A DNA stretch of 64,000 nucleotides. It comes from Undaria pinnatifida. Its lineage: Eukaryota; Sar; Phaeophyceae; Laminariales; Alariaceae. Below are positions 1,394 through 63,679 of the stretch, piece by piece. The first letter of the stretch is position 1, and each line of letters begins with the position of its first letter. Where the stretch lies: NCBI GenBank assembly GCA_012845835.1, contig JABAKD010000019.1:4259994-4323993 (forward strand). Reading direction: 5' to 3'. Made by a program: the position numbers and the translations under genes. The notes below the pieces were generated by a model. The model was not told the DNA's origin and did no database searches. It was given only the letters and a program-made list of their open reading frames with translations.

Positions 1394-4300
1394 GTTCGCG
1401 CGATGCACGAGCTCGACAGGGGACAAATGGTGTGGGGGGATTGGAGCGAGCACAGCCGGGCGTTCGTAACCGACAAGCAGGCGTATAGACCGACCAAGCC
1501 GGCGCGGCACATCTGGATACTGGTGCACGGGATGAGAGGGGACGTCGACGACATGCAGTACATGGCAGGGTGCATTCGCTCGAGGTGGGTCTTGGTGCTG
1601 GCGGTGGCGTGATGGTTGCTAGTGGTGGTTGGGGTTAGAATGGAGATGGTGGGGGAGGGGGGGAGGGCGGGGGGGGGGGGGGGGGGGGGGGGGGGTAATA
1701 TGTTGCTTGCCTTAGTGATTTGATCAACCATTGACCACGCACCCCTTTGGAGCCGGAGCACCGTTCCTACTCGAAATAAAAACGCCTCCGACATTTGGGC
1801 GCTCATTACGTCTCTTCCATGTATTTCGCAAGTGTGTTTTGTCTTCCTTATCTCCGTCGTGGCGGTGGGGGGTGATGGTGGTGGTGGTGATGGTGGTGCA
1901 TGCTACGGTGGAGGTGCACCACTTTTTTTTCTATTGATCCTCCTCGATTTGGGAGCTTGAGACCTCTCTAAGGCAAAAACTGATGCAGAGAAAAAATAAA
2001 AGTGCTACCGGATTAAATATGCCATGGCCTAGGTACACGGCGAGAATCATGCCAAAAAACAAAATGTCGTATTTCCGACGATTTAGGCCAGGTTGAGGAG
2101 CCCCGTCATTCAGAAACCATTTCACACCAAAAATGCTCGTACCTCTATCGTAGCACGCGTCTTATGCTGCTGCTGGTGGCTGGTGGTGTCTGGTGCTGGT
2201 GGCTGGTGGTGCTGGTGCTGGTGCTGGTGGCTGGTGCTGGTGCTGGTGGCTGGTGGTGGCTGGTGGTGGCGATGGTAGTGGTGGGGGCTGTTGTGGTGGC
2301 GGTAGTTGATGGTAGCGTCGGTGTTTATGGTGTTGGTGGTGTTGGTGTAAAGGGTGTTGGTGGCGGCATCGTTGAGTGGGTTTGCCACGTTGGCTCCTGG
2401 GAGCCGTCGGCATGCGGGGGATGCTCGTGTGATCCGTGGCAGCATAACACGTTCCCGAGTATTCTGGAGTACGATCACTTTTTTTTAATACTCGGGTAAG
2501 GGAGAAAAGGGAAGAACAACATTTTTTTGGCAGATGTATCACACGTTGGTTTAGAACACCAATATTGAACTGTGTTATGATAGCTGCTGTAGTCGTAGAC
2601 GAGAGGGAGGGGTGGGGGGGGGGGGGGGCGGACGTTGGAACGCCGCGAATTGTGTTCTGGCGATATGGCAAGCGATTTGTTTTCTCGGGTCTGAAACGAC
2701 TCGAAGATTGCTGTGGCATGTTTGCGAACGTCCGGCAGATCTTGGACAACAAAATGCTTCATGACCTAGATATTTCAGGAAAGATCTGTATGCTCTGTAT
2801 GGCCTATGGCTCATGTTACCGGGTGGGAGCCGTACGATCTACGTGATCTAACAAATGTTTTCCAGGCCTGGATCTGCACTCTCTGTGTTACGTACATATC
2901 CTGCACAACGTTTCACCACGACATATACAGGATCTACTGTTATAGAGCATATAGATAATCTGATTATCTAAATCATGACATGTCAGAGCTGTGCATATGA
3001 TCTACATCGTGATCTATCCGAGGTGTGCGTATGATCTGCAGTACATCGTGATCTATCCTATCTGTGCATGTGATTTAGATCGTGACCTATCCGAGGTGTG
3101 CATATGATATACAGTACATCGTGATGAATCACAAGGTGTGCATTTGTTTTGGACCATGCCAGAAGGCGCGTTTACAAAAAGATCGGAGGAGATGGGGTGA
3201 TATGGTGTTTGCAGTTTCCGGTTGGATCACTATCGCCCGTCCGCTACCGCTGCCGCCGCCAGCAACTTTTGTGTTTGCTGGGGTCGAAGGCCACTTTTCC
3301 TTTTTTCAACTCCACGTGTTTTCGATTATCGGCATTAGATTACTTTTACTATTAATCTGGTTACGTCGAGCTTACGAACCCTTTCCCCCCCTCCCTTCCC
3401 CCCTCCCTCCCTCCCTCCCTCCCTCCCTCCTTCACACGCGCCCTTGTCGTCTTATTTTTGCGAACAAAACGTACCTCTTGATGTCTTGTCTCACGTCAGG
3501 CATGGGTCGGACGCGCACGTGGTAGTGGCGGAGTGTAACTCTGCGGCGTTCAAGACCTTGGACGGCATTAGCAAGGGGGGAACCAGGCTTTACGAGGAGG
3601 CAATGCAGGTGACCCCTATACGGATCATACAGTGTTGTTTTTCGATCGGTGGAAGGATCGTTGATACGGTACCTGTGGTATTTTTTTGCTGCTGCTGTTG
3701 CCGCCTTCGGCTGATGTCGTGGAAAGGTGGGGGAGAAGGTGGGTCTTGGGTCTGTAGCGCCCGTGAGGTGTGTTTGGTGTGCCACGCGCTTGCTTTCCGG
3801 GTCCCTCTTTGCTGTTGCTGGATCAGCGGGGACGTTGCTTTTCCTCGCATGTGTTCACTCCTCTACAATGCCCCCCCCCCCCTGTCCTCCCCTCCTCGGA
3901 GGCGTTGTTGTATGCTCGCTTTGCAAACGTCACTCTCCGCCTCTCGCGCTCTCTCGCTCCGGTGACCTTGAAGTGTGTTACAGCTCATCGACACCTGGAA
4001 CTATGTCCCCCCACCTTCAGTGATGTGCATCGACGAATAGCGAAAACCTCGCCCTCCCCACCCCCTCCACTCCTCCGACCCCACTCTTCCCCAAGGAGGA
4101 GGGGTAAATAATACCTGGCACTTACCTCCCCCTCCATCTCCTGGGCATGATATCTCCCGTGCATCAAACCCCCCCGTCCGCCTGCCCCCTCCCTCTATCC
4201 TCGGAGTGGAGCGGACGTTAACAACGCCATAGCTACCCGGCTTTTACCCCTCCCCCCCACCCCAAATGAGTAACCGCCCCCCCCGCCGTCCCCCGTCCCC

Positions 4301-7300
4301 CAGGGGAAGGCGTTAATTATGATATCGCTCATCGGCACCCTCCCCCCCCCCCCGACATGATCCCCTTACAGGAGGCATAAATGATGTAGCATGTCAGCGG
4401 CATTTATCTGCCCCCCCTTACGCGGAAGTCGCCTCACACGTGCTTCTTACTGGGACTCAGTTACCCTTCATGCAACTCGCCGAACACCTCACGGCACTTC
4501 GCGCTTTTTGCGTGCAATGTCTGCCTGGTTGGTGAAAACCCGACGTGCTCCGTCCCGGCATTGCAGGAACGCGAGGGTCTATCGCCATACGCCTACGGCT
4601 ATGCATGAAATGAGTTCACCCCCCCCCCCCACCCCCTGCCTGGTTGGTGAACACCCGACGTGCTCCGTCCCGGCATAGTAGGGATGCGAGGGTGTATGGT
4701 CATACGACTACAGCCATGCACAAAGTGAGTACACCCCTCGCCCCTCCGAGGGGCATCAACAATGTCCTAGCTCATCGGTACTTACCCCCCTCCCCGTTAT
4801 CCTCCCCCCCTCTTCGTTGTCCTCCCCCCCTCCCCTCCGTTAACGTGTTTGGGGCTGCCAGACAATTGATAGTGTGCCCACGGCGGAGTACATATCGTTC
4901 ATCGGACACGGCTTAGGCGGGATTTACGCCAGGTTGGTTCTTTTAATTAGTTCAGCATTAAGTGATGATTAATTGACGACTTATTATATGTGTGTTTCAA
5001 TAGGGTAATCACTTTAAGACCACCCCGCGGCAGGCTTATGTTGGGTGGATAGGCCTGTCGCAGGGTGGTCTTATCTCTGCTACTCGTATGGCCTTATCTT
5101 CTGTAGATACTGCAAATGTTGATGCTGTACTGATTCCTACTACTTTTTTTTTTCGTGACACGCTGATTCACCTGGTGTATTATCCCGAAAAATCTTAAAC
5201 CGGACGGTCTTAAACGGGATGGGGACTCGATAGGGGAAGTGTCGGCCACCTGAAGAGTTTGTTTTTCGTGACAAGCCGATTCACCTGGTCTTATCTCCCG
5301 AAAAATCTTACCCCGGATGGTCTTAAACGGGATGGGGACTCCATAGGGGAAGTGTCGGCCACCTGAAGAGTTTGTTTTTCGTGACAAGCCGATTCAGCTG
5401 GTCTTATCTCCCGAAAAATCTTACACCGGATGGTCTTAAACGAGATGGGGACTCGAGAGGGGACGTTTCGGCCACGCGAAGCTTTTCTTGCTTTTCGGGT
5501 CATTTGGGGGCATAGGAAAACTACGCCCGCGGAATGTACCTGGAATTCCATTCTAACGCGCCGGCAAGGCACCCGCAGCCCATGCCGAGCAGGCTTTTGT
5601 TTGTTTTCGGGCACGGTATTGGGGCTGACGGGGCCGCGGCGAAAGAGGGGGGAGAATAATTCTTACTTAATGCTGCCATTTCAATTTTCTTATCGTCTAG
5701 TTTTAGGTGGGTACATTCCCAGTTCAGCTCCTTAGTTCGTTGGTACTCGTCGTTTTTGAGCATCCTGGTACATTTTTCGGTACTGTCATGTGTACTGGTT
5801 CGAGGGGGGGGGGTGGTGGTGTCGTTAGCTTTGAGATTTTGTTCAGCTTTTGTCCGCTTTCTGGGACCAAGCGGGGAAGACGGAGCGGAACGCTTTTGGT
5901 GCAAGAGTTGAAAAGGCCTGGTCACGTCGCGCGGAAGAGAACCAACACATTCAACAGCCCCCCCCCCCCCCCCCCCCCCCTCCCCGTGCGATCTTCTTCT
6001 TGGGGAATCTCCTCCTCGTGTCCCTGTTTCTTATGTTCGCTTGTTTCTGTTCGTTTCGTCGGCCATCCTCGCGGCCAGCTCTTCTAACATTGCCACCCCC
6101 CCCCCCCCTCCCCAACCACTACCATGTCCCTTCCCTGTTATACAAACCCTTTTGTACTATCTAGATACGCCCTGCGCCTGCTGAATGACGCCTCCGTTTT
6201 TACGGATCGGCTGTCCCCGATGAACTTCATCACGCTTGGGACTCCGCATCTAGGCTCTCTCATGGTGAGCTCATGCACCCCCCTCTCCCCTCTCGGCCAC
6301 ACTCGGCTACAGCATGTTTTGTTTGTGTTTGTATTTGTAGCACCCACAGCCAGTCGACGTAGGCTCCGGTCAACGCAAGCGCTTTGGCGATGTGTCCCCA
6401 TGTATTGCTGATGCTGCAGTCATGTGCGCGTGCGTACGTTTATTTGTCGAGTGGTTTGTTCAGCATGTTGATTTGTTTTGATCGCCGGAAGAGGAAAGCT
6501 ACTGACTGTCGGCGGAACCTGCTCATGTGGCGATCGCATTGGCGTCCGATTCAATCGATTCCGCGTGTGTTTGGGGGCATGGTACTGTCGCGACCACAGG
6601 AAGCGAAGGATACGTCAGCTAGCGCTGAATGGCGAATGCCATTGAGTTGTATTGACCCACGACGTGTGTGAAAATGCGTGGAAGTGTGGTGAGCTTAAGC
6701 TTCTATGTTTCCCCATCCGCCGGAGGATTTGAAAGAAAAAAAAACTTTCAAGGTAAGAGGTGCACCGTTTTTTTTTCTTTTTTTCTGAGGCTTTTCCGTC
6801 GCTTAAGGAGCTCCATACAAAAAAGAACAAGAAGTGATTATGCGAAAAATAAAAGTTGTATTATATGTACCCCATGAACAATCCCGTGGCGAACGACGAT
6901 TACTGCAAAAAGAATATTCGTAGAATATTCGTGGATTTGGGGTGAAGGAAGAAACCCGTAGAATACTCGTAGAATATTCGTGGATTTGGGGTGAAGGAAG
7001 AAACCCGTAGAATATTCGTAGAATATTCGTGGATTTGGGGTGAAGGAAGAAACCCGTAGAATATTCGTAGAATATTCGTGGATTTGGGGTGAAGGAAGAA
7101 ACCCGTAGAATATTCGTAGAATATTCGTGGATTTGGGGTGAAGGAAGAAACCCGTAGAATATTCGTAGAATATTCGTGGATTTGGGGTGAAGGAAGAAAC
7201 CCGTAGAATATTCGTAGAATAGTCGTGGATTTGGGGTGAAGGAAGAAACCCGTAGAATATTCGTAGAATATTCGTGGATTTGGGGTGAAGGAAGAAACCC

Positions 7301-10300
7301 CCGTCGTGGGAATATATTTTCAGCCGAAAAAAGTGCCACCTAAATCTATCGCAGCGCGCGTCTTCTGGCCAGAGTTACGACTGTGCGGGAGCCGCCCCCA
7401 CACACCCCTCAGGCCAGACCCCGCGAAGTTGCGCGTACGTGCCAGAGGCTATTTTCGGATTAGCACGTAATGCATTATTAGCGAGTAATGTGTGGCAGCT
7501 CCCTATGTGCAGGTCCGCACAAAAGACGGTTTTCGTGCCAGACCTAACCCTAGCCCGAATCCGACCCCACACCTGACCCTAAAACCCTAGCCCGAACCCG
7601 AACCCAATGCTCTGGGGGACTCGAGATCTGCTCTCGAGGTCGGCAGGGGCAGTCCTGCCATACATCCATCGCCTGCATTTACGTGCAAAAATGAAAACCT
7701 TGTACGTACGCGTGCAATAAAACGCTTGGTCCCCACAGGCACACACACACCCGTTGGGGCTTGGGCGCGTTGTGTGTCGACGGCGCTGCTTGGCTTTTGT
7801 TGTGCTTTCGATTAATTGATTACCCCTGATAAACCTGTTGTATAGTTTTTGTTCTCGTTTGTTGTGTCGTAAATATTATACGAACATATGTTCTGTCCTT
7901 TACTGTCCTCCTTTTTTTTCTTTTTTTTTTGTCTGTTTCTGTTATTTTTTACGTTTCATTTTGTCGTCTACTTTTTGTGCCATTTTTGTGTGTTTGCATC
8001 ATCTATGTACATATTTTATGAGGATGGTTTCTAAATGACTTGTTCTGACTTTCTTGTGCATGTCCGTGTTCTTTTTTCGTGTTTTTTTGTGTTCTTTTGT
8101 TAATGTTCTCTTGTTAATGTTTTTCTTCTCTTTTTTGTTTTCTGGTGTATTACACTTGAACGAATCCCCGTGGTTCGGCGTTTCGGATGAATTGCATCCG
8201 GCAGGCGAGTGGTGGCACGATCGGACGCATGGTGGACAGCGAAACGCCGGACCAGCTAGCCCTTAAGGACACGGACATGCAAAGGTAAGACTAAGATAGT
8301 GCTCACAATTTTTTTTTGCTCATCCCATTTATTATCTCCGAACTTTTTTATTCATTCATTCATTCAAAAAAATCAACCAATTGAAGAAAAAAAAAAAAAA
8401 AAATCATTCTAAAAATTCATCTAAAAAATTATTCAAAAAATTCATTCAAAAAAATCATTCAAAAAATTCATTCAAAAAATTCATTCAAAAAATTCATTCA
8501 AAAATTAATTCAAAAAAATCATTCTCTCCCTCCCTGCTTTAGTCGTAACTCACATCTGGGATCACTAAGAAAGCTCTTCCCCCCCCCGCCCCACTACGGT
8601 ACGCGCCTTATTCCTTTTTTTCGCGAGAACGCTTGAGCCCATTATTTCTTCCCTCGTCCACTCGTCGACGTTTGTCTCAGAAAAACCCATCCCACGCTAG
8701 GCGTGCAGCGAATTCTGAGAACTTTCGGAGCTCTTAACACGACGATATCACCATCACCCTAACCATCACCCGAAACACGACTTCGAAAACATTCGCTCGC
8801 GCAACCCACCCAAAATTTCAGATTTTCCGTGCGCTAGTCCTAAAAGCAGTCGTTGTGCTCGTAAAATGTTCGCACTATGGATAACAGCTAGTTCCACAGA
8901 CGTAAGCTACGATCGAGGCTGCTTTTCTTTTTTGTGTGTTCTGAGGTTGTTATAAATTTGGGAGCTCAAGACCTCTCCTTAAACTGATTTCAGGAGAGAA
9001 ATCAACAAGCTGCTGACCGGAATGAAAAACCCCATGGCCTAGGTACATACACAACGAGAATCACATGCAAAAAAAAGGAAATGTCGTATTTCCGACGATT
9101 TTTGGGTTAAGGAGCCCCGTCATTCAGGAACGGCTTTCCATAAAAAAAGGCATACCTCTATCGTAGCGTGTGTCGGCACTTGAGAACGCGAGAAGGTGAG
9201 ACACCTTAGCTCACCCAAGAGTGCAATCCTTGTCGTGGGATGACGCTTGTTAGTACGGAGTCTCGCCAATCAGGAAGGTTTTGGCCAAAACAATGCGCTA
9301 CGTTTATGGTAGTTGGCGTCGGTACCGTGTAGTCCCGTACCCCCACCCCATCAGAAGTCGGGCGGAGGAGGGGAAGGAGGAGGAGGAGGAGGAGGAGGAG
9401 GAGGAGGAGCAGGAGGAAGAAGGCGCACAGAGCTGCCCTTGTGGCAAATGCGCGAGGGTGAAGCTCATGGTGGACGGGATCTGTCTGTACAAGGAGTGAA
9501 CGGGGTCTGTTGAAAGAGGGTCGAGGAAAGTATTTTTTAACTAGTTTTCAAGGACGTCAGCCGTGAGTATTATTAGTCGTATGTGACATGGAGACATGGA
9601 GAAGTATGGTACACTATTGTTAAGCAGTAGCGAGGAAACGATCGCTGTCCTGGGAGATGAGATGGTGGGCCCACAGACGGCCGAACAGAAAGGGCGTGAG
9701 GCAAGCTCGCACAACAGGCATGGAAGAAAACGTAGCGAGAGCCCAAAGGTCGGAGGTGTCACGATTGGAAGTAGAAACACGCTCCTCCGTCTCGAAAGGA
9801 ATCCGTGGTCAATGGCCAAAATGACTTAAGTCAAGCAGCAAGTGAGCCCCCCCCCCCCCTCCCCCCCCCACCCCATTTCCCATTACGCTTGACACACAAC
9901 TCCCTCTCCTCCTCCTCTTCCTGCCTCCTTGTCACCCCCCCCTCCCCCCTGCTCAATATTTGTGTCAGCAGAGGTGGCGGCCCAACTAGGGACGCCTACG
10001 GGGAGGGTGGGGCCAACAGCATGAGCCGGGGCTCAAACTATGGCGTTCCCTCGAGCAGCATCAGGCGGGCGGGCGGAGGCACGAGGCCGCCCATCCTGGC
10101 GAGGATGACAGGGGAGGAGTATCTAGCCCCCCTTAGACTTTTCAGGAGGCGTGTTTTGTACGCGAACGTGAAGCTGGACACCACTGTGGAGTACCCTAGC
10201 GCGAGCGTGAGGTTCGACGACCCCTACGTGTACGTGCCGGATCAAGACCTGTGAGTGGGCTTTGTTTTTTTTTGTTTTTTTTGGTCGTCGTGTGTTTGTG

Positions 10301-13300
10301 TGTGTGTATTTTGCGTGTGTTTTTCTTGGTGGGTCTGTAAGTTGGTGTGGGTGGGTGAGTGTGATGGTTGTTTTATTCATTGAGGGTGCGTTCTGGGTGT
10401 TGTTTTGTTCTTGTTTTTTCCTTTGTTTTCGTCTTTTTTTTGCTGGGTGTTTGCCTGGATGTGGGTTTATGATATCATTCGTTGGGCGTGTGTGGGTGGG
10501 TGTTTGGTTTGTTTTGAGGGTTGGGTGCCTGGGGATGCTTTATCTTTTTGTCTTGTTCGGGGGAGTTTGTCACGGTGATGTCTGGAAACTTGCCTATGGG
10601 TGGATGGGCGGGTGTGTGTGTTTGTTTGCATGTTCGATTGTTGTGTTCGGGGATCGCAACGTGTGTCCCTGCTTGGGCGGCTCCTCGTCCGGTCTTGACT
10701 GCAGCACTAGCCGCTCGGACATATAGTTCACGATCTAGATTATGTAGAGCTTGTAGATCCTTATACCCGACGTGTGAACACTAAGTCATTCGGAACCGAC
10801 GCTAAGCGCACAATGCGACGTCTGCTCCTCTCTCTTCCCTCCCCCCCTGCCCACTCCAAAACAATGCCGACCAGGGAAAACATGTGCTCTCCGCACTATG
10901 ACCACGTAATGGTGACCAGCAGCTCGGGCAGCAGTGAGCCCATGAACTCCAACGTGGTGCGGGGTCCGGGAGGGGGTTTCCCGACAGCCCTCGCGGAGGC
11001 GGCGCCTGAGCCGGGGATGTGGGAAATAATGGTAAGCGCTGCTGGCGAGCAAACGTGTTTTATACGAGGACAGTGTCGTAACATGCTTCTATTAATAGCG
11101 GTACGGTGGGGATGCGCCTGCTTGAGAAAAATGGTTGTACCTTCCCCCCCAGAAGTGGATTTTGCTAGGAGTGAATGAAAAATGTGCGAATCCGACGAAA
11201 AAAGTACAAAATTGAAAAAAAATGAAATAAATAAGAACCCTCCCATTAAAGTGAAGAAACTCACTCACATGATATCTTTATTTCAAGTACCAACAACGCA
11301 GCTCGCGAAGATGAGTATCGACCCTAAATTCGTCGAACTCACAGCTGACGTCCTTAGAATAATTTTATAAAATGCCATGGCCTGCGGTAGTTGTTACAGT
11401 GTATACGGAGTACCTGGTATACATCACGAGTAATAATTAAACCCAAAAATGTTATTAGCCCCTTTTTTTAAGCCCCCAAACTCCTCCCTACACTAAGTTC
11501 AAGTAAATTTGTCCATGTAACGAGTACCAGGTAATAATTAAACGCAAACAGGCAAATAACCCCTTTTTTTGAGCCCCCAAATCCCTCCCTGTACTAACTT
11601 CGAGTAAACTTGTCCATATAACGAGTGACGATTAAAGGCAAAAAGGCTGTTAACCCCTCTTTTTGAGCCCCCAAATCCCTCCCTATACTAACTTCAAGTA
11701 GATTTGTAGAAAAAAAGGGTTTCCAGCTGTGAAGGCGTTAACGTATCCCAACTTTTACTCGAGAGATGCCTGCTACGATAGATATAGTACTCTTTTTTTT
11801 GGCAAAAAATACTCGCTACGTTTCGGGTCACGTTTAACCCACTGACGCGCGTGCTACCGTAGAAGTGCGCCCCTTTTTTTTCAGGGTTCCTGAATTCGGG
11901 AGGTTAAGACATGTCCTTCTTAACCCAAAGCACTGATTTGGACGAGAATTAAAACCTGCTTTATCGCGGATGAAAATCCCATGGCCTACAAGTATGATAG
12001 GTACACAACGAAAATCGTGCGGAAAAAAAAATGTTGTACGATGTTTCCGAAACCTCTTCACACGAAGACTGACACCTCTATCGCCGGGATTTCACTTCGT
12101 GTTTTTTGCGTTTGTATACGATACCAGGTATACTTTTTGCGTTTTTTTGCTTTACACCTCGGCCGTGTGATATTGTTGACCGGGTTGCAGTTTGGATTGT
12201 GCTCAAAATAAGCTTTTGTCTAGGAGGGTGTATAGAGGTCCTCCGTGTGAGGAGGAACATTAACGCCTTCACAACTGGAAACCCGTTTTTGGGGACAAAG
12301 TACTTGGAAAAAGTGTAGGGAGGGGTATAGAGCTCCTCTAGCGACGGGGATCGTTAACGCCTTCACAACTGGAAACCCGCTTTTGGGGACAAATTACTTG
12401 GAAATAGTGTACGGAGGGGTGTAGAGGTCCTCAAGTGAGGAGGAGCAGCAACGCCTTCACAGCTGGGAACCCGTTTTGGGGGACAAATTACTTGGAAATG
12501 GCGTAGGGAGGGGTATAGAGTTCTTCTAGTGAGGAGTATAAGAAAAGAAAGTGGAAACCCGTTTTTGAGGGCAATTTACTTGGAAATAGTGTAGGGAGGG
12601 GTATAGAGGTCCTCAAATGAGGAGGAGCAGTAACGCCTTCACAACTGGAAACTCGTTTTGGGGGGAAAATTACTTGGAAATAGTATAGGGAGGGGTATAG
12701 AGCTCCCTCTAGTGAGCAGTGTTGAGAAAAAATGAAAAACATGCACCTCTGCCGTAGCTAGTTCGGTTTTTGCACCATATTATTAACAGGTAGTTAACTC
12801 AATTTTTTTCACCATGTTATTAACAGGTAGTTCATTCCATGTTTTCCGCCGCATTATTCCCACGCAATTCATTCCAATTTTTGCACAATATTAGTAGGAG
12901 ATAGTTAATTCCATATATATATTTTTTTTATTTTTTTTTTGGGGAGGGGACGAAAACGACCTAAAACCTTTGTCGCAGGAGCCCCCGCGTCCGTTTCGGC
13001 GTGATCGGTATATTGGTGAATAAAAATAATCTCGGCGAATTATGACAATTGAGGAGACGAATTTATATCTATTATATATATTTTTACATGGTGGTTTTGT
13101 GCATGTGTTATTTTGCTCGCTTTACGTGTTGTGTACAAGTAGCTATGGATGGTGGTGGGGACGTTGGAGGGGGGGGGGGGGGGGCTTGGAAGAAAGAGGG
13201 GAGGCAAGAATGATTCAAACCTCTTGCTCATTGGGGTTAATTGGGGAGGGGGCGGCGCGGGGCGGGGGGGGGGGGGGGGGGGGCGGGGGGCAGATGCCTT

Positions 13301-13869
13301 GGTTGTTGGGGGAGAAAGTTAGCGGGCGAGAGACGGATGCTTTCATGTGCTGCGCTCAGAGAGCTGTGCGACACTGTGTTGTTTTGTATCTCTCAAGTCT
13401 CTCGTTGACGCGTGCTGCACTCAAGAGAGCTGTATCGTTCTGTATCGCAAAATCTCTTGTTGACACGGCCCACGGTTTTGCCCGAGGTTGGCTGCAGGCG
13501 TCAATTTGCTTAGGATTTCAGCAATCGACCCCCCCCCCCCCCCCCCCCCTCCTCCTTCTGCCCGGCTGCTCAACGCCCGTCAATCCTCACCAAACTCTCT
13601 AACCCAAGGCCCAAGTGCTGGACTCGGTGGGCTGGGAGAGGGTCGACATATTCAACTCCGAAGGCATGTCCCCGTACAAGGACCTCGTTGTCGCGAGCGA
13701 GTGGCTCAACTCCGAGGGCACGAGCATCGTCTGCCACCTCGTCGATAACTCCCCCAACAAGCCGCTTCTTCCGACAAAAGACGCGGGAGAAGTGGAGCCG
13801 GGGGGCGGGGGGAGGGAGGAGGAGGTGGAAGATTTGATTAGTGGGCTCGACGATGATGACAGTGCATGA
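1394..13869 (+). CDS. DUF676/ROG1-like alpha/beta-hydrolase, probable pseudo-lipase
   Basis: Eight exons read in one continuous frame: 1394-1584, 3500-3608, 4862-4932, 6165-6264, 8205-8284, 9972-10250, 10875-11031 and 13609-13869 (TGA), about 415 residues, with GT-AG introns and matching phases. Family marks in order: HIWILVHGMRGD (first strand and oxyanion loop), VVVAECNSA, YISFIGHGLGGIYAR (nucleophile elbow), FITLGTPHLGS, then LRLFRRRVLYANVKLDTTV, which carries the usual acid residue, and a C-terminal WERVDIF...IVCHLVDN block. DUF676 proteins such as yeast ROG1 are serine lipases acting on acylglycerols or phospholipids. Here the elbow reads GHGLGG where GHSLGG is expected (codon GGC at 4910-4912), and the C-terminal AHN-type histidine appears to be tyrosine (13675-13677), so catalysis is doubtful. 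The glycine- and serine-rich stretch in exon six and the acidic tail look like lineage-specific additions. The first coding exon follows a good acceptor at 1392-1393; translation starts at ATG 1403 or in an unseen upstream exon. The exon-five acceptor is the weakest junction. Confidence 0.87.
1695..1830 (-). repeat. Family H fragment, reversed
   Basis: GTTGCTTGCCTTAGTGATTT, CAACCATTGACCACGCACCC and CGCCTCCGACATTTGGG are the reverse of the distal part of the 9.4 kb copy. Confidence 0.6.
1896..2161 (+). mobile_element. MITE, GACGCGTGC family, copy 1
   Basis: About 265 bp with imperfect terminal inverted repeats of consensus GACGCGTGCTACGATAGAG. The body shares with other copies the blocks GGGAGCTTGAGACCTCTC, CCATGGCCTAGGTAC, GTCGTATTTCCGACGAT and GGAGCCCCGTCATTCAGAA. 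No coding capacity. Lies in the first intron of the hydrolase gene. Confidence 0.8.
2164..2345 (+). repeat. TGCTGG/TGG simple-sequence array
   Basis: Imperfect CTGGTGGCTGGTGCTGGTG units for about 180 bp, starting right after MITE copy 1. Confidence 0.9.
2740..3140 (+). repeat. Family J repeat (GATCTA-rich)
   Basis: CTCATGTTACCGGGTGGGAG, CGATCTACGTGATCTAACA and a tandem set of ACATCGTGATCTATCCGAGG-like words. It aligns with the reverse of 26.7-26.96 kb. Confidence 0.75.
4388..4620 (-). repeat. Family I repeat, reversed
   Basis: GTTACCCTTCATGCAACTCG, TTTTTGCGTGCAATGTCTGC, CGTGCTCCGTCCCGGCATTG and CTATGCATGAAATGAGTTC. Confidence 0.8.
4625..4735 (-). repeat. Family I half-copy in tandem
   Basis: Repeats CTGCCTGGTTGGTGAA, CCGACGTGCTCCGTCCCGGC and CAGCCATGCACAAAGTGAGT directly after the larger reversed copy. 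Confidence 0.78.
5015..5073. repeat. 21-bp-arm inverted repeat
   Basis: TAAGACCACCCCGCGGCAGGC at 5015-5035 pairs with 5053-5073 with two mismatches. It sits just upstream of a three-copy tandem array that also carries the TGGTCTTA word, in an intron of the hydrolase gene. Confidence 0.85.
5145..5478 (+). repeat. Tandem repeat, about 114 bp, three copies
   Basis: Units share TTTTTCGTGACAAGCCGATT, CACCTGGTCTTATCTCCC, GATGGTCTTAAACGGGATGG and AGTGTCGGCCACCTGAAGAG. The last copy diverges most. Confidence 0.92.
6755..7362 (+). mobile_element. MITE, GACGCGTGC family, copy 2, with internal minisatellite
   Basis: The left part matches the family (CTGAGGCTTTTCC, AAGGAGCTC) and the right end reads ATCTATCGCAGCGCGCGTC. 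Between them sits a 49-bp tandem array not found in the standard copies. The left terminal repeat is poorly preserved. Confidence 0.6.
6910..7297 (+). repeat. 49-bp minisatellite, about eight copies
   Basis: Near-identical units built from GTAGAATATTC twice, GTGGATTTGGGG, then TGAAGGAAGAAACCC. Because 49 is not a multiple of three the array cycles through all frames and is open in a long minus-strand frame, which is an artefact of the repeat. High identity suggests recent expansion. Confidence 0.95.
8354..8522 (+). repeat. ATTCAAAAA minisatellite
   Basis: About fourteen units of ATTCAAAAAATTC type with an A-run inside. Confidence 0.9.
8692..8850 (+). repeat. Family D repeat
   Basis: ACTTTCGGAGCTCTTAACA, ACACGACTTCGAAAACATTC and GCTCGCGCAACCCACC. 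Three dispersed copies in the window, noncoding. Confidence 0.72.
8899..9174 (+). mobile_element. MITE, GACGCGTGC family, copy 3
   Basis: Ends GACGTAAGCTACGATCGAG and CCTCTATCGTAGCGTGTGTC are inverted repeats. The body carries GGGAGCTCAAGACCTCTC, CCATGGCCTAGGTAC and GGAGCCCCGTCATTCAGGAA. About 276 bp, noncoding, in an intron of the hydrolase gene. Confidence 0.82.
9368..9412 (+). repeat. GGA microsatellite
   Basis: About fifteen GGA units, in an intron of the hydrolase gene. Confidence 0.9.
9430..9835 (+). repeat. Family H transposon remnant
   Basis: Contains AGAGCTGCCCTTGTGGCAA, AACGATCGCTGTCCTGGGAG, ACGGCCGAACAGAAAGG and AAAGGAATCCGTGGTCAATG. The translated words EETIAVLGDE and ERNPWSMAK are conserved against the 55.6 kb copy, so this may once have been coding. 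Family unknown. Confidence 0.6.
11295..11375 (-). repeat. Family C fragment
   Basis: CGCAGCTCGCGAAGATGAG, TATCGACCCTAAATTCGTCG and AACTCACAGCTGACGTCC. The same words recur at 39.4 kb and, diverged, at 22.4 kb. Confidence 0.75.
11440..11735 (-). repeat. Family B, three reversed units
   Basis: Reverse units share AGCCCCCAAATCCCTCCCT, TACTAACTTCAAGTAAA and TTGTCC, with an ATAATTAAACGCAAA-type spacer. The last carries CAGCTGTGAAGGCGTTAAC. Confidence 0.85.
11844..12091 (+). mobile_element. MITE, GACGCGTGC family, copy 4
   Basis: Left end GACGCGCGTGCTACCGTAG and a degenerate right end ACACCTCTATCGCCGGG. The body retains CCATGGCCTA, GGTACACAACGAAAATCGTGC and TTCGGGAGGTTAAGAC. Confidence 0.7.
12215..12727 (+). 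repeat. Tandem array of a ~105-bp unit (family B)
   Basis: About five units containing AACGCCTTCACAACTGGAAA, CCCGTTTTTGGGGACAAA, TTACTTGGAAATAGTGTAGG and GAGGGGTATAGAGGTCCTC. Single or few copies of the same unit occur elsewhere in the window, so it is both tandem and dispersed. Confidence 0.92.
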
Positions 13870-25000: not shown

Positions 25001-28000
25001 CCAACGGAACATCGCAGCCGATATCACGTTAAGACCTCCCGGGTATACCATTGGAATTACCAGGGCAATGCCAACATGTAACCAACGCAAAACCAGTGGA
25101 ATAACACCAAAAAAAAAAGGAGAAAAATCAAGGTGATACCAGGTTACCATGAAAGGAGTACAAGAGGGAAATAAAACGCCTGGGACCTCCGTAGGGTACC
25201 CGTGCAATACAGGACAGCCAGGACGACACCAGAGGGAAACTCGACGACACCTGAAAGCAGTCGTCGCTGCTACGCCGCCTCCATTCACCTCGCATTCGGG
25301 CCCGGCGAACCCCAAGTTTCGACATTATACGATGGTTCCAAGTATGATTCTCCTGACTTCTATGATAGGAGTTAGGTGGCACGCCTCCACGTTTGTTCAT
25401 TTTCTTCCGGTCGTGTACACTAACATCTGTGCAGGCCAACAAACACTACACACATGGCAGGTAGCAACGAACACCGACAACCGTACTATATACGGCATGC
25501 ATTTCGACGGGGGCATCTGCCTCCCGGCTATGTGTGATTATCACGTCACAACAGTAGCGAGCATAGTGCAACAGCAGTACTGCACGGGGTCGCCCGGCGT
25601 ATGCAACTACGACATAAAAGCGCCAGTAGCAGTGATGTATTATAGCAGCAGCAATCGCACACACGGTGCATGAAAACAGTGTACCAGTGTTACGAATTGA
25701 TAGTGTCGTCAATGGCCGGGCGGCAAAGCGAGACCGAAAAAAAGGGGTGAAGCAGCCAAAAAGAGAGCACGGCATCGGATGAGACAAAGCGCCTCCTTAG
25801 CTGAAACGGCGTTGTAACGGTTCATACAGCAGTGGGTAGCCCGATCAAACGCCTTTACAACTGCAAACCCTTTTTTTTTCACAAAAGTACTAGAAATAGC
25901 GCAGGGAGGGATTTTGGGGCTCTCCAGGGGTCAAGAGCGCCGGCGGGATAAGAGCGTTCGGGAGTTTAGTGCGGTCAAATCGGCGTGTCCCGTCTATACA
26001 AAAAAGCTGAATATTTTCCACTACAGATACTCGTACAAGCAATGTGTAGTCAAGAGCGCTTGTTTCGGCTTGTCGGCTTGTCACGGGGAGCTCTTGAATC
26101 GGGGTACCCCCTGCATTATAGCAACAGTACTAACAGCAGTAGTGTCTGTCCTTCACACCGGGTATGTTCTGTTTGGCGAGGTCCAAGTCTCGCGCGTGTA
26201 CTGGGAATACAACGTGCACTTGTAGTCGTGATGCCCACCAGAGTAACAGCTGTAAACAGGCGCCCCCCCCCCCCTCATTTATCAACCATCACTAACGAAT
26301 TCGCGGACACCACCGTGTATTGGAGAGGCAGCGGCACGGCTGTACCGCGAGACCAGTGCAGACTACAAAATAAGTTGTAAAAAATATAACTGCTGTTATC
26401 AACGGTAGTTTTTGATACTTCAGTACAGGTAGTGACTAACGTAAAGCGCGGTTGTTTGCTTCAACGGCATGAGCGCAAAACACGACAGAGATACGCATCC
26501 ATATCGGACGAGTGTTTCTACTCGAAGGGTGCTCAACTGATGGTGCATCAATCGTACACCATACGAGCACCGCTGCCAAGTTTCACGTACTAAAATAATA
26601 CGGGCAGTGGCTGTGTACGAGTACAGGTATCTCGTAGTATCACCCTGTACATGGTGAAGGTGAGGTGCAGCACCGCCAGTAACTGTGCAACGCCGAACAC
26701 CGAACACATTCACGCCTCCGACAGATCTATCGCGATCTAGACCATCTATGTCCATATCATCTACGTAGATGATCTACTTCCAAGTCTACAACAGTATGCA
26801 GTCGTATTAAGATGTTGTGCAGGGTGTGAATGTAATACAGGGTGCAGATTAAATCCAGGAATCATGTTCTAGATCACACAGATCGCACGGTTCCCACCCG
26901 GCAACATGAGCTAGACTATACAGATCTTCCCTGCAAGATCCCTAGAAAGATCTGCCGCAGATAAAGTGGGGATCGACTACCTGTCCCTAGGTGTGAAAAA
27001 AAGCATCTACCACAAAAAGCAGCCGGGCAGTCGGCCTCGTAGGGAATTCGACCGGAGTGCAACGGGCAACCCAACGACACCTGCAACGACGATCAGCACG
27101 ATACACGATACTCGTGGAGCCGTTACAAGCACTTTGTTAATCCGTCGGTACGACCTATGCACCATACCGCTGTGTTTTAGGTCGTTACTCTGATCATCCA
27201 CACCCTTTCAAACTGCAGCCACATTGTTGGCTCAATACTTGAAGATGGTGTGGGTGCATTTTCGCAGCGTCACAGCAGCACTGGTGTAAAGCGCTTGAGT
27301 GGCAATCAAAGGAACAAAAAACAGACGAAAATACTAACCTGGGTGAGGAACCCGACGACGGCGAGCATCGCCGTGCGGCCGTGCTTAAGCTCCGCCTCGC
27401 GGTACGAGTTCAGGCGCTCCTCGGGCCCCTTGGAGAACCCCATCGGGTCGAAGAATCCCAGGGGTGCGCTCGCGCCGACCATGTCCGCGGCCACCATGGA
27501 AAGCGACGAGGACGCGGGCCGTGCCACCGAGGCGACGCGGGAGCCGACGAACGGGCCGCTGGGCACGAACGCCGATGCGCTACAAGTATCGTGATCATTG
27601 GGGGTATTGTTGCAACGATCGTGATGTCGCGTAAATTGAGCGACGACGGAAGGGGGGGGTTGGAGGGGCGGGGGAGGCGGGACGGGGAGAGGGAGAGCGA
27701 GGGGGGGGGGGGGGGGGGTTATGTGGGGTGTTGTGTCGTGCCAATAGCTAAGGGTGAAAGTGCTGTTGTGTACTTAGATGCGGCGTACTACTCTTCATGG
27801 TAGCATGGTAGCGCCGGCACCGAAAACACTACCTGGTATCGCGGTAGCTCGTACCATACTACTGCTATTAATAGTACCATACTGCTTGTACCGGAAAGTA
27901 CAAGAAATGAAAACAAAGCGACAGACCCAACGCAACAGGAGAGCTTCGGTTCTCTTAGTTTTTTTACTGGCATGTTTACGTCCTCACCGCGAACGGCGAA

Positions 28001-47339: not shown

Positions 47340-50300
47340 AACTCACGTGAGTAAGCACCAAAGTCGGGAAGGAGATGGACGTGGCGTGTCGGGACTGCTA
47401 CCCCCTTCACGTTGGCACTTAGGCAAGAACCGGGCTGGGCGTCGGGAGACGGAGAGAGGGAAATACTCTCTCGGAAAAACGGACGGTGGAAGGGAGAAAA
47501 TCGGATGCTCGGCAGAAGAGGAGGAGACGCAGGAGGTTTCGAAGGGCTGCTCAGAAAATACGCAAAGGTGCAAGGGCTAGGTCGAGAGCAGGGGAACTCG
47601 TCGTGGGTACGTACAACGTTCGCACACTTGCTTCCGAAGGCACGGAAGGCATAGGCCACGCCGAGGTGATCCTGTAGACTTGCGAGGACGCAAGTTGTGA
47701 TATCATAGGATTGCAGGAGGTGAGGCGGAATGGACAAAGTACTTTACGGCGGCGGGGTATGTTGTGTCTTGCTCAGGAGCAGACGGAGGAAATCACGAAA
47801 AGAAGGGGAACCACGGGGTAGGCTTAGCTGTTAGAGAGTCTATCGTGGCAGGGATGGATAAGGGCGACGTCGCGCTTGAGTGCATCAGTGCTAGATTGAT
47901 GAAGGTTCGCATCCAACTCAAAGAGAAATCCAACGGGGTGCCTTTCATTGTAGGCTATGCTCCAACTCTCGACAAGACCACCAGCGAAAATGATTACTTT
48001 TGGAGTTCACTTGACGAGGTAGTCAAGGGGGTACCCAGTAGGGACCACCTCCTTGTCCTGATGGGCGCAAATGCTCGTACTGGCACGAGAGGGATCGGGT
48101 GGACCGACAGCAAGGTATTGGGTGCATACGGACGTGACGAACTGAACGACAACGGAGAGCGACTATTGATTCACGGAACTGATAACAAACTCGCCCTCCT
48201 CAACACGTGCTATGCTACACCTACTCGTGGTATATCGTACGTTTCAGAGTCCTAACCGAGGAAAGGCCCAGTACAGGCTTGACTACATACTGACACGGCA
48301 AGTGGATAGACGATTGGTACGTAATGTCACTGTGCGGACCCCACCCAGGGAGAACGCCGAGTCGGACCATCACCTCGTAATCGGAAATATTCGCCTTTTG
48401 GGCCGCAGCGCACCAAATCGTCCAACGAGAGTCATCAAAAACCGGCGAGCTACTGATCTACCAAGATTAATGGCGGACCCGCATCTCTGAATGAATTTCC
48501 AAGACGCGATAGCAGTCAAGCTTGCCTCCCCGATACCCAATACCAATGCCGGAAGCGTTGATGACATGACCTCATCACTAACCGAGACGCTACTGTCGAA
48601 TGCGGCCGACATAGCGCCCCCTATTCGGCGCAGACAAGTACCGGGGGGCTAGTGTGCGACCGAGGAGACGAAAGCGGAGTTGAACGCACGATGGCAGGGC
48701 AGGGAAGACGAGAGGAAACGGGTCCGTTCTGCTCCAAACGATCGTGGTCTACGGCGAGCCTTGAAGGCGACCACCAAACAGCTTAAACGCACGCTGACGG
48801 AAGCTGTACGAAGGTTCTTCGAAGATTACGTTAGCCAGCTCGAAGGGCGTATCCGAGAAGGTGGTCAATTTGGTTCCTACAAACACTTAAAGGGGATGGA
48901 TGTGGAAGGGAAGAGGACGTTTAACCCGCAGTACATCAAGGACGAGGAAGGTCGATTGCTGCGGGAAAATGCCCTCATCCACGAGCGGTGGGTGAAGCGG
49001 TTTCATAAACTGCTTAACACCAAGTCGCCGACCCTTGACCCGAACATTGTGGACGAACTTGAGCAGTGGCCCCCGTGCAGACCGCTGGACGATGTTCCGT
49101 CTAGGTACGAAGTAGAGGAGGCGATCCTTGCTTTGGCAAACCGAAAGGCGGTAGCGCCCGATGGTTTTGGCCGACGAAGGAGAATTGAACACTCTTGGAA
49201 AGTTCTACGATATCATCGTCGCTGTGTGGAGGGGAGGTGGCGTGCCGCAACAATGGAAATATGCAACGACTTAGGTGCTTCACAAGAAGAAAGATCGGAC
49301 TGAGTGTGGCAATTATCGTGGAATTTTCCTCGTGGCTCACGCCGGCAAAGTACTCCTCAAAGTCATCGCGGGTTGCCTGAGTGACTATTGCGAACGCGAG
49401 AACATTCTGCCGGAGGAATAGTGTGGGTTCAGACCCCAACGCTCGACGGTTGACATGATGTTCGTAGTACGACGACAGCCGGAACTGGCCCGGAAGAAGG
49501 ACACCCCCTTGTACCTCCCCCTTGTACCTGTGCTTTGCGACCTCACCAAAGCATATGACTCCGTCGACCGAACCCTTCTGTGGGATGTCCTGGCTCGTTT
49601 CGACGTGCCACCGAGAATGCTCGCCGTCATCCGCCAATTCCACGACGGCATGCAAGCATGCGTGCGGCTGGATGCTGCAAAGTGCTCGAAAAATTTCGAC
49701 GTGGGGCAAGGTCTCAGGTAAGGATGCGTGCTCGCGCCACTGCTGTTCAACATGTTTTCACGGCGGTACTGCGTGTGGCCGAGAAACGCTTCTTCGTTGA
49801 TGCAGCCATCACGGATAACATGGTGCAGCGCCAACGAAAGAAGGAGAAAGGCGAGAAGAAGGGCACTCCACGCACACGCACAGTCGACGGGCGGAGGGGG
49901 AAGGAGGAGGAGGAGGAGGAGGTGCAGAGATTTGTGGAGTATGCTGTACGCGGACGATGCGGGCATCGTATCGCGATCATCAGAAGGGCTGGAGAGGATG
50001 ATGACGGTGATCGTGACTGCGCGCTCGGCGTTCGGGCTTACGGTCTCCGGGGCAAAAACAGATATTATGTGCCTGCAAACCAAAGGCGGGGGGAAGGTGT
50101 CGTTCACAATCAATGCAGCCTGCCAGGTATACAAACAAACAATCGAGTTTGTGTACTTGAGCGGGGATATCACCGCAGACAGAGACCTGAGCATTGAAAT
50201 AACGCGGCGTCTTCAGAGAGTCTGGGCGTGCTTCCAGCGGTACAAGATGGAAATCTATGATCGCCCGGGTGCGCGCTTGCGGTTGAAGGTGCGGTTGCTG

Positions 50301-51230
50301 AAAGCTGAGGTGGTCGAGACTCTTCTTTACGGGGCATGACGTGGAGCCCGAACAAGCCTGAGTATGACAGGCTATGACGGGTTCACCACTCCGTGCTTGT
50401 TCGATGCCTCGGATGGCGGAAACGGAAGCGCGACGACCACACCCTATCGTACGCCGACGCGCTTGCCAAGACAGCTTTCAAGAGCATAGAGGCGATAGTG
50501 CGCAAACGGAGGATATTGTTTGCGGGATTCGTACCACGTATGGGGGAGGAGCGTCTGCCACAGAGGATGATGTTTGAGGAGATTGTTGGGGGTAAGGGCT
50601 ACTCAGGGGGGCAAGAGAGGGACTGGCTGGCTCATCTGAAGGAGGACATGTCGGTCTTTGGAATCAAATTCGAAGGGTGGCGAAAGGCTGCTCAGAAGAC
50701 CGGCAGATGGTTTCGACGACTGGAGGAGGGAGCCGAGTTGTTCACGCGGAATTTGCATGAAACGGGGAGACGCAAAGCTGCAGAGCGACGCGCAAAGGCT
50801 GCGGCAGCGCCATCCACCGTCGGCATCTCTAAGCGGCCGGCGGGAGGGGGGAGGAGGGAGGGGGGAGGGGGGAGGGGGGAGGGGGGGAGGGGGGGAGGGG
50901 GGGAGGGGGGGAGGGGGGGAGGGGGGGAGGGGGGGAGGGGGGGAGGGGGGGGAGGGGGGGAGGGGGGGAGGGGGGGAGGGGGGGAGGGGGGGAGGGGGGG
51001 AGGGGGGAGGGGGGGAGGGGGGGAGGGGGGGAGGGGGAGGGGGGAGGGGGGGAGGGGGGAGGGGGAGGGAGGGAGGGGGGACGGGGGAGGGGGGGAGGGG
51101 GGGAGGGGGGAGGGGGGGAGGGAGGGCGTCCTGCCCAAGAGACTGAAGTCTGGGTCTGGCCATAATCGTCTTAAAATTTGTGGGGCTTCCAATGGCCGTC
51201 ACAAGAGAGCGTAAGACCGCCGTGACTTCT
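47340..51230 (+). mobile_element. Decayed APE-type non-LTR retrotransposon (LINE)
   Basis: Translated pieces in successive frames follow the order of a CR1/Jockey-like LINE ORF2. An APE endonuclease comes first: GTYNVRTLA near 47.60 kb, GLQEVRR near 47.72 kb, then the NGERLLIHG, YRLDYILT and SDHHLVI blocks to about 48.4 kb. The reverse transcriptase follows: NRKAVAPDG near 49.14 kb, [20 protein letters not shown] near 49.56 kb and the catalytic YADD at about 49.95 kb. The C-terminal part has KAEVVETLLYG, RILFAGFVPRMGEERLP and WLAHLKEDM. The element nicks target DNA and copies its RNA into the site. This copy is dead: stops fall at about 47,675, 48,490, 48,651, 49,721 and 50,339, and the frame shifts near 47.75, 48.22, 49.17, 49.43 and 49.8-49.9 kb. 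No ORF1 or target-site duplication was recognised, and the 5' limit is approximate. Fairly recognisable residues suggest moderate age. Confidence 0.92.
50847..51125 (+). repeat. G-rich (GGGGGGA)n array in LINE 3' part
   Basis: About 280 bp made of runs of four to seven G separated by single A, with occasional GGAGGGAGG variants, close behind the LINE's last recognisable protein segment. It reads open in several frames only because it encodes Gly/Arg/Glu or Pro-rich peptide. Strong G-quadruplex potential on the plus strand. Confidence 0.9.
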
Positions 51231-55399: not shown

Positions 55400-55795
55400 C
55401 GGCGTTAAAAGGAAGAGATAGGAATGAAAGAGTATTTTCACGGCCCAATGGACTACGCGAAACCGCCTTTACTGCATTTTCTTGTGGGGAGCCTGGACCA
55501 GCCAGAAAGGGGAGGAACAACGCTCACAGAGCTGCCCTTGTGGCAACGCAAGCTGGGTACGTTAGATGATGGCGGGAAAGCGATCGCTATCCTAGGGCAT
55601 AGATGGTGGCGACGGACGGCCGAAGAAGAACGAGATATGGCAAGCAACAGCAGTTATTATGTAGTACGTGGTATATGGAAGAATTTTGCTGAACACCCAA
55701 AAGTTTGAGGTGCCTCTATTATGAATAGGCGCGGTGCTCCGTTCTGAAAGGGATGCGTGGTCAAAATGGTCAAATGACTAAAGCAAGCAACATGT
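55400..55795 (+). repeat. Family H transposon remnant
   Basis: AGAGCTGCCCTTGTGGCAA, AAGCGATCGCTATCCTAGGG, GACGGCCGAAGAAG and AAAGGGATGCGTGGTCAAAA align with the 9.4 and 36.9 kb copies. The translation has GKAIAILGHRW and SERDAWS. An open stretch just upstream (54,923-55,312, with ERDRNEKL) repeats its ERDRNE-like words near 55.42 kb and may belong to the same element. Confidence 0.6.
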
Positions 55796-55901
55796 GAGTT
55801 CGCCCCCGCCCCTCAGCTTCATCCCCCTTACTGCGACACCATTTAACGTGTTTATTTTTAACCCGCATATATTTCCCCCCCGTCTCTCTCTCCGGCTTCA
55901 G

Positions 55902-63679
<7,778 letters not shown>

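Follow-up and report, generated by a model that had tools for sequence, protein, structure and literature searches.

A DUF676 hydrolase domain with glycine at the nucleophile position, probably a non-catalytic module of a predicted multidomain scaffold in Undaria pinnatifida

What becomes of a hydrolase domain whose nucleophile is gone? A gene in a 64-kb stretch of the Undaria pinnatifida genome (here the window, whose own numbering is used unless a contig is named) raises this question, since its DUF676 domain has glycine where the family has its catalytic serine. The domain may have been kept for a role other than catalysis, it may still act by another route, or it may be decaying; alternatively, the glycine or the gene model could be an artifact. 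The initial annotation favored a maintained non-catalytic protein, regulatory or lipid binding, over a decayed gene. This is the best-supported reading of our results, and it is strengthened by the SAM, PDZ, PH, and FN3 domains encoded upstream, but the evidence supports it overall only in part.

Eight exons on the forward strand, between positions 1394 and 13869, join into one in-phase frame of 415 codons followed by a stop codon at 13867-13869. The seven introns between them are all GT-AG, and every phase is compatible, in agreement with the initial annotation of eight in-phase exons with intact splice sites and no stop. The span given there (4862-13869), however, contains only six of the eight exons, and the chain starts at 1394. 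When compared with Pfam, the joined exons match DUF676 (PF05057) with an E value of 3.9e-33 and 115.2 bits, above the curated cut-off of 20.3 that defines membership, and this match is not due to chance. A search of the protein against NCBIfam gave nothing over cut-off, and an Rfam scan of the 64-kb window gave nothing.

Numbered within the 20-exon model described below, exon 13 (1394-1584; GT-AG, entered in phase 0) encodes the last FN3 strands and then the beginning of DUF676, including HGMRG, the presumed oxyanion-side motif. Exons 14 (3500-3608, with AECNS and DGISKGG) and 16 (6165-6264, with FITLGTPHLGS) encode the DUF676 core and were placed by splice sites, phase, and Pfam; between them, exon 15 (4862-4932) holds the nucleophile elbow. 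Exons 17 (8205-8284) and 19 (10875-11031) were placed by splice sites and phase. Exon 18 (9972-10250) encodes a low-complexity stretch and then the acid motif LYANVKLDTTV, while exon 20 (13609-13869) encodes the C-terminal region, an acidic tail, and the stop codon. For the C-terminal fragment alone, the match to DUF676 covers positions 172-212 and scores 13.4 bits, under the cut-off of 20.3. Two tandem arrays lie in the introns, one at 5145-5475 (113-base unit, 2.9 copies, 91% match) and one at 6911-7300 (49-base unit, 8.0 copies, 98% match).

The elbow in exon 15 reads GHGLGG (4904-4921), and its middle glycine, encoded by GGC at 4910-4912 (+), occupies the column of the nucleophile serine; both the motif and the codon are where the initial annotation had put them. 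An active DUF676 serine esterase carries this serine in a GxSxG motif, which GHGLGG does not provide. Having kept the family match with the nucleophile replaced, the domain is a pseudoenzyme as judged by sequence only. With glycine in place of the nucleophile serine, the acyl-enzyme of the serine-hydrolase mechanism cannot form.

An alignment to relatives, which had been proposed as a check, sets this glycine against serine. Namely, a search of plasmid sequences at E values up to 1 found 10 weak records, among which four from Burkholderia were excluded before counting, and all six of the relatives fetched have serine at the elbow column. Plasmids yielded no relative at an E value of 1e-5, nothing matched in phages or viral contigs, and 16 pattern matches among genome contigs included no relative. 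Five solved bacterial lipases were matched as well, and in the three with printed alignments the glycine aligns to the S of GHSQGG. The same elbow could result from an error in assembly or base calling, or from a private allele, at a codon that usually reads AGC (Ser), as GGC is one transition away from AGC and a single assembly forms the basis of our reading. Yet the presumed histidine triplet also differs from the family motif AHN, and the assembly combines PacBio long reads with a read set for genome survey and correction (PMC7058681, in an excerpt where the row label is missing). We consider an error or private allele highly improbable.

Could a serine-bearing elbow be encoded by an exon other than exon 15? 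We scanned the region between 3500-3608 and 6165-6264 for phase-compatible open stretches of 30-400 bases bounded by AG and GT. There are 155 such stretches between exons 14 and 16, and GxSxG occurs in four of them: three represent the same GLSQGG frame, and one lies in the 113-base tandem repeat. The GLSQGG frame (5004-5176, +) sits in a hairpin, with inverted repeat arms at 5015-5035 and 5053-5073 and a fold energy of -44.4 kcal/mol, and was judged an intronic decoy, not an exon. Its translation, WIGLSQGGLISATRMA, mimics a serine-hydrolase elbow. By eye, neither the hairpin frame nor the repeat frame extends the family pattern, and an alternative serine-bearing exon 15 was rejected because only the exon at 4862-4932 continues this pattern on both sides. 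An alternative exon with a family-like GxSxG, which the initial annotation had named as a finding that would speak against it, was not found in the region between exons 14 and 16.

To place the gene among its relatives in the same genome, we used the DUF676 profile at E values up to 10, which gave seven matches among the best-scoring candidates: two in the window gene, three in a gene on contig C34, and one each on C38 and C31. Serine stands at the elbow column in both of the other Undaria genes over the DUF676 cut-off, whereas the window gene has glycine; the initial annotation had suggested looking for a second, catalytic paralogue, and two serine-bearing ones exist, with the elbows GNSLGG (C34) and CFSMGG (C38). 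The C34 paralogue (C34:7251418-7253430, -) has a long low-complexity insert between its elbow and its acid motif. No SAM, PDZ, PH, or FN3 domain was recognized by eye near it among the candidate exons of 30 kb. An exon piece resembling the start of a SAM domain, DMSAWSREEVKSFVNALERVVGEDN, lies 13 kb downstream (C34:7238269-7238428, -) and, searched alone, has no match in Pfam.

In the C38 gene (C38:1566000-1575999, +), the CFSMGG stretch was read by eye and lacks a Pfam match of its own. Upstream of it, two frames match DUF676: one passes the cut-off with 21.0 bits, and the other, with 12.9 bits, does not. Downstream lies FVTLACPHLG, which can be aligned to FITLGTPHLG in the window gene. An open frame at the same locus reads ANPRDGFVPLHSAA, which we take to recall the acid region of FAM135. 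The match at C31:2344963 scores 17.9 bits and was excluded from the count of family members, being under the DUF676 cut-off; it reads GHSLGGAVA and is presumably a lipase of another type. No close copy of the window gene was found elsewhere in the genome among the scored candidates. Beyond its own exons, the DUF676 part matches the C34 paralogue best (E value of 0.0145), and the matches of the PDZ-PH-FN3 part are weak (E values of 0.009 and worse).

The C34 paralogue also informs on the rest of the catalytic triad. The Asp codon GAC at 10177-10179 (+), which we take to encode the triad acid, is kept, because LYANVKLDTTV aligns with RAYANRRGDFMV of this paralogue (YANVKLD versus YANRRGD), Asp against Asp; the motif had been reported as kept, and this alignment bears it out. 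In this respect the domain resembles an active DUF676 serine esterase. The catalytic histidine, in turn, is probably lost. The tyrosine codon TAC at 13675-13677 (+) belongs to PYK (13672-13680), which presumably stands where the family has AHN, the catalytic histidine motif. To compare the histidine, we looked for the final exon of the C34 paralogue but did not find it among the candidate exons around that gene. In the 1035-residue model, the three residues are Gly737, Asp873, and Tyr972. With the nucleophile serine and probably the histidine lost, an acyl-enzyme and ester hydrolysis by the usual route would therefore not be expected.

Catalysis might still proceed with another nucleophile or by a serine-independent mechanism. 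The domain keeps HGMRG, GTPHLGS, and the acid Asp, histidines remain in SPHYDH (exon 19) and CHLVDN (exon 20), and migrated residues are used by some pseudoenzymes (PMC10211241, in excerpt). Yet the elbow, FIGHGLGGIY, contains no Ser, Cys, Asp, or Glu, and the four GxSxG motifs in the neighboring introns belong to the hairpin decoy (three) and the tandem repeat (one). Retained catalysis is quite improbable in our judgment.

The DUF676 exons are unlikely to be the whole gene, as exon 13 begins at a splice acceptor and continues through closing FN3 strands, VRAMHELDRGQMVWGDWSEHSRAFVT, into DUF676. We placed 12 more in-phase exons in the 30 kb upstream, which gives a 20-exon, 1035-residue model (C25:4241136-4273862, +) with 17 GT-AG and 2 GC-AG introns among its 19. 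By profile match, the domain order is SAM, a low-complexity linker, PDZ, PH, FN3, and DUF676. The gene had been taken for a member of a hydrolase family; this holds for the DUF676 part, which is, however, one domain of a larger predicted protein that extends beyond the window. For the whole model, Pfam reports DUF676 at 111.7 bits (cut-off of 20.3), fn3 at 28.4 bits (cut-off of 25.0), and, both with a small margin, PH at 27.5 bits (cut-off of 25.1) and SAM_2 at 21.7 bits (cut-off of 20.5).

The PDZ domain remains under its Pfam cut-off of 23.2 everywhere (13.0 bits in the whole model and 18.5 bits at best, on a short piece) and is not listed for a 769-residue piece searched at E values up to 0.1; compared with solved PDZ domains, the region matches GRIP best (E value of 2.2e-6), as well as PTPN13 (E value of 1.1e-5). 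A PDB search with the PH-FN3 piece found 49 sequences; each matches the FN3 part, and none is a PH chain. The best whole-sequence match is titin (E value of 2.9e-9, summed over many repeats), and the best single-domain chain is 1x4z (E value of 5.1e-5). The SAM part has no significant match in the PDB, with Neurabin-1 as the best (E value of 0.01). The upstream exon borders were set by hand with homology in view and could shift, the weakest junction being that between exons F and G inside PH, and the model omits a 96-base in-phase stretch between exons G and H. This exon-like stretch, QYNEVVRSVVASCDSHHGNQPYEHVDAVYTVQ (+), is located between the two FN3 exons, about 3.0-2.9 kb ahead of the window. 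Its final part looks by eye like that of exon G, so a cassette or a duplicated exon is possible. The introns flanking the second SAM exon have the GC donors CAG/GCAAGT and GAG/GCAAGT (C25:4241252 and C25:4244724, +).

A model of this length could also arise by misjoining two genes, one encoding SAM-PDZ-PH-FN3 and the other DUF676, and an intron of about 3.5 kb does separate exon H, the last upstream exon, from exon 13. Yet a single open frame in exon 13 runs from the closing FN3 strands into DUF676: the Pfam fn3 match extends 5 residues into it, and the DUF676 match begins inside it. Its acceptor also fits exon H in phase 0. We find a misjoin barely credible.

The whole model has no stops and no broken junctions in 1035 codons and 19 introns, which limits neutral divergence since a loss of constraint to less than 1.7%, a rough Poisson bound that counts only stops and splice bases. 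Restricted to the window exons, the bound is about 4.9%, and 1.6% when indels are also assumed. All these values are rough, as they come from a Poisson model with zero events in which a transition is weighted at twice a transversion. Third-position GC is 0.756 in the model, whereas the introns that separate the window exons have a GC content of 0.49. Because homology guided the choice of exon junctions, the probability of the phase fit was not used as support.

The DUF676 part alone could be a dying module, drifting neutrally within an otherwise maintained gene: its nucleophile is replaced, its histidine probably too, and exon 18 contains low-complexity sequence. It nevertheless retains eight intact exons and a DUF676 match of 115.2 bits, and neutral drift would leave stops and splice sites unharmed only up to the divergence given for the window exons. 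We regard such drift as unlikely. The intact chain and the neutral bounds argue against a decayed gene, although selection on the hydrolase domain is not proved thereby.

Overall, the domain is probably a C-terminal non-catalytic binding module of a maintained 20-exon SAM-PDZ-PH-FN3-DUF676 scaffold of about 1035 residues. It has kept its fold motifs and presumed acid, with Gly in place of the nucleophile Ser and, probably, Tyr in place of the catalytic His. The PH domain and the hydrolase pocket may read a membrane lipid or an acyl ligand; alternatively, the pseudo-hydrolase surface may bind a partner. SAM, PDZ, and FN3 would oligomerize and dock signaling proteins. We infer non-catalysis, the binding of a ligand or partner, the scaffold role, and the use of the exons as modeled. 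If real, the protein is a candidate kelp signaling scaffold, and it would be a defined example of how a lipase fold becomes a binding module.

Yeast Rog1 is a DUF676 serine esterase. The window gene shares the family match (E value of 3.9e-33) with such esterases but lacks the nucleophile serine and, in our model, is fused to SAM-PDZ-PH-FN3. In excerpts of the respective reports, Rog1p is described as a second MAG lipase with minor activity (PMC4882453), and a DUF676 esterase of Leishmania is captured by a fluorophosphonate activity probe (PMC12117450). Non-enzymatic proteins of the alpha/beta-hydrolase fold include NDRG3 and the neuroligins, and such members have scaffold roles and control protein-protein interactions (PMC7022630, in excerpt). 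Like the window gene, NDRG combines a hydrolase fold with replaced catalytic residues, yet it belongs to another hydrolase family. All of the triad residues are replaced in NDRG3 (PMC7022630), whereas the window gene keeps the presumed acid. Among the matches listed from open-licence papers, we met no DUF676 pseudoenzyme, alone or within a SAM-PDZ-PH-FN3 protein. NDRG proteins, to our knowledge, lack the SAM-PDZ-PH-FN3 scaffold domains. What would be new here is a hydrolase-fold pseudoenzyme, a known type, in the DUF676 family and with this architecture. The gene itself is not reported among the matches listed from open-licence papers, which include PMC4882453, PMC9464883, and PMC12117450, as far as their excerpts go.

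The upstream half of the model recalls the animal scaffold CNK/CNKSR, in which SAM, CRIC, and PDZ are followed by PH, with a linker (PMC11257983, in excerpt). The SAM, putative PDZ, PH order and the linker would be common to both; in the model, SAM and PH exceed their Pfam cut-offs, whereas PDZ stays under its own (13.0-18.5 of 23.2 bits), although its region matches PDZ domains in the PDB. The SAM domains of CNK2 and Aveugle are among 11 weak PDB matches of the SAM part (E values of 0.24-1.2). Unlike CNK, the model has no CRIC match, either in residues 1-395 at E values up to 1 or over the whole model. We know of no FN3 or DUF676 domain in CNK. The likeness is one of domain order only, and the shared SAM-PDZ-PH order may be convergent. 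It is possible, though rather doubtful, that brown algae, independently of animals, built a CNK-like membrane scaffold (SAM-PDZ-PH) with a dead DUF676 domain as a sensor of a lipid or acyl ligand. If true, this would be a signaling hub in a lineage with independently evolved complex multicellularity.

Elsewhere in the window, an open frame at 27306-27773 (-) matches chlorophyll a/b-binding protein (PF00504, E value of 3e-15) and is part of a light-harvesting complex gene. A run of open frames at 47701-51214 (+) looks like a degraded LINE-type element; within it, 49722-50339 matches the reverse-transcriptase profile PF00078 at 26.1 bits, under the cut-off of 29.6. Finally, an open frame at 55782-56357 (+) has a signal-like stretch ending in SAPKCQAFVRPS, presumably a heterokont plastid-targeting motif of the ASAF type.
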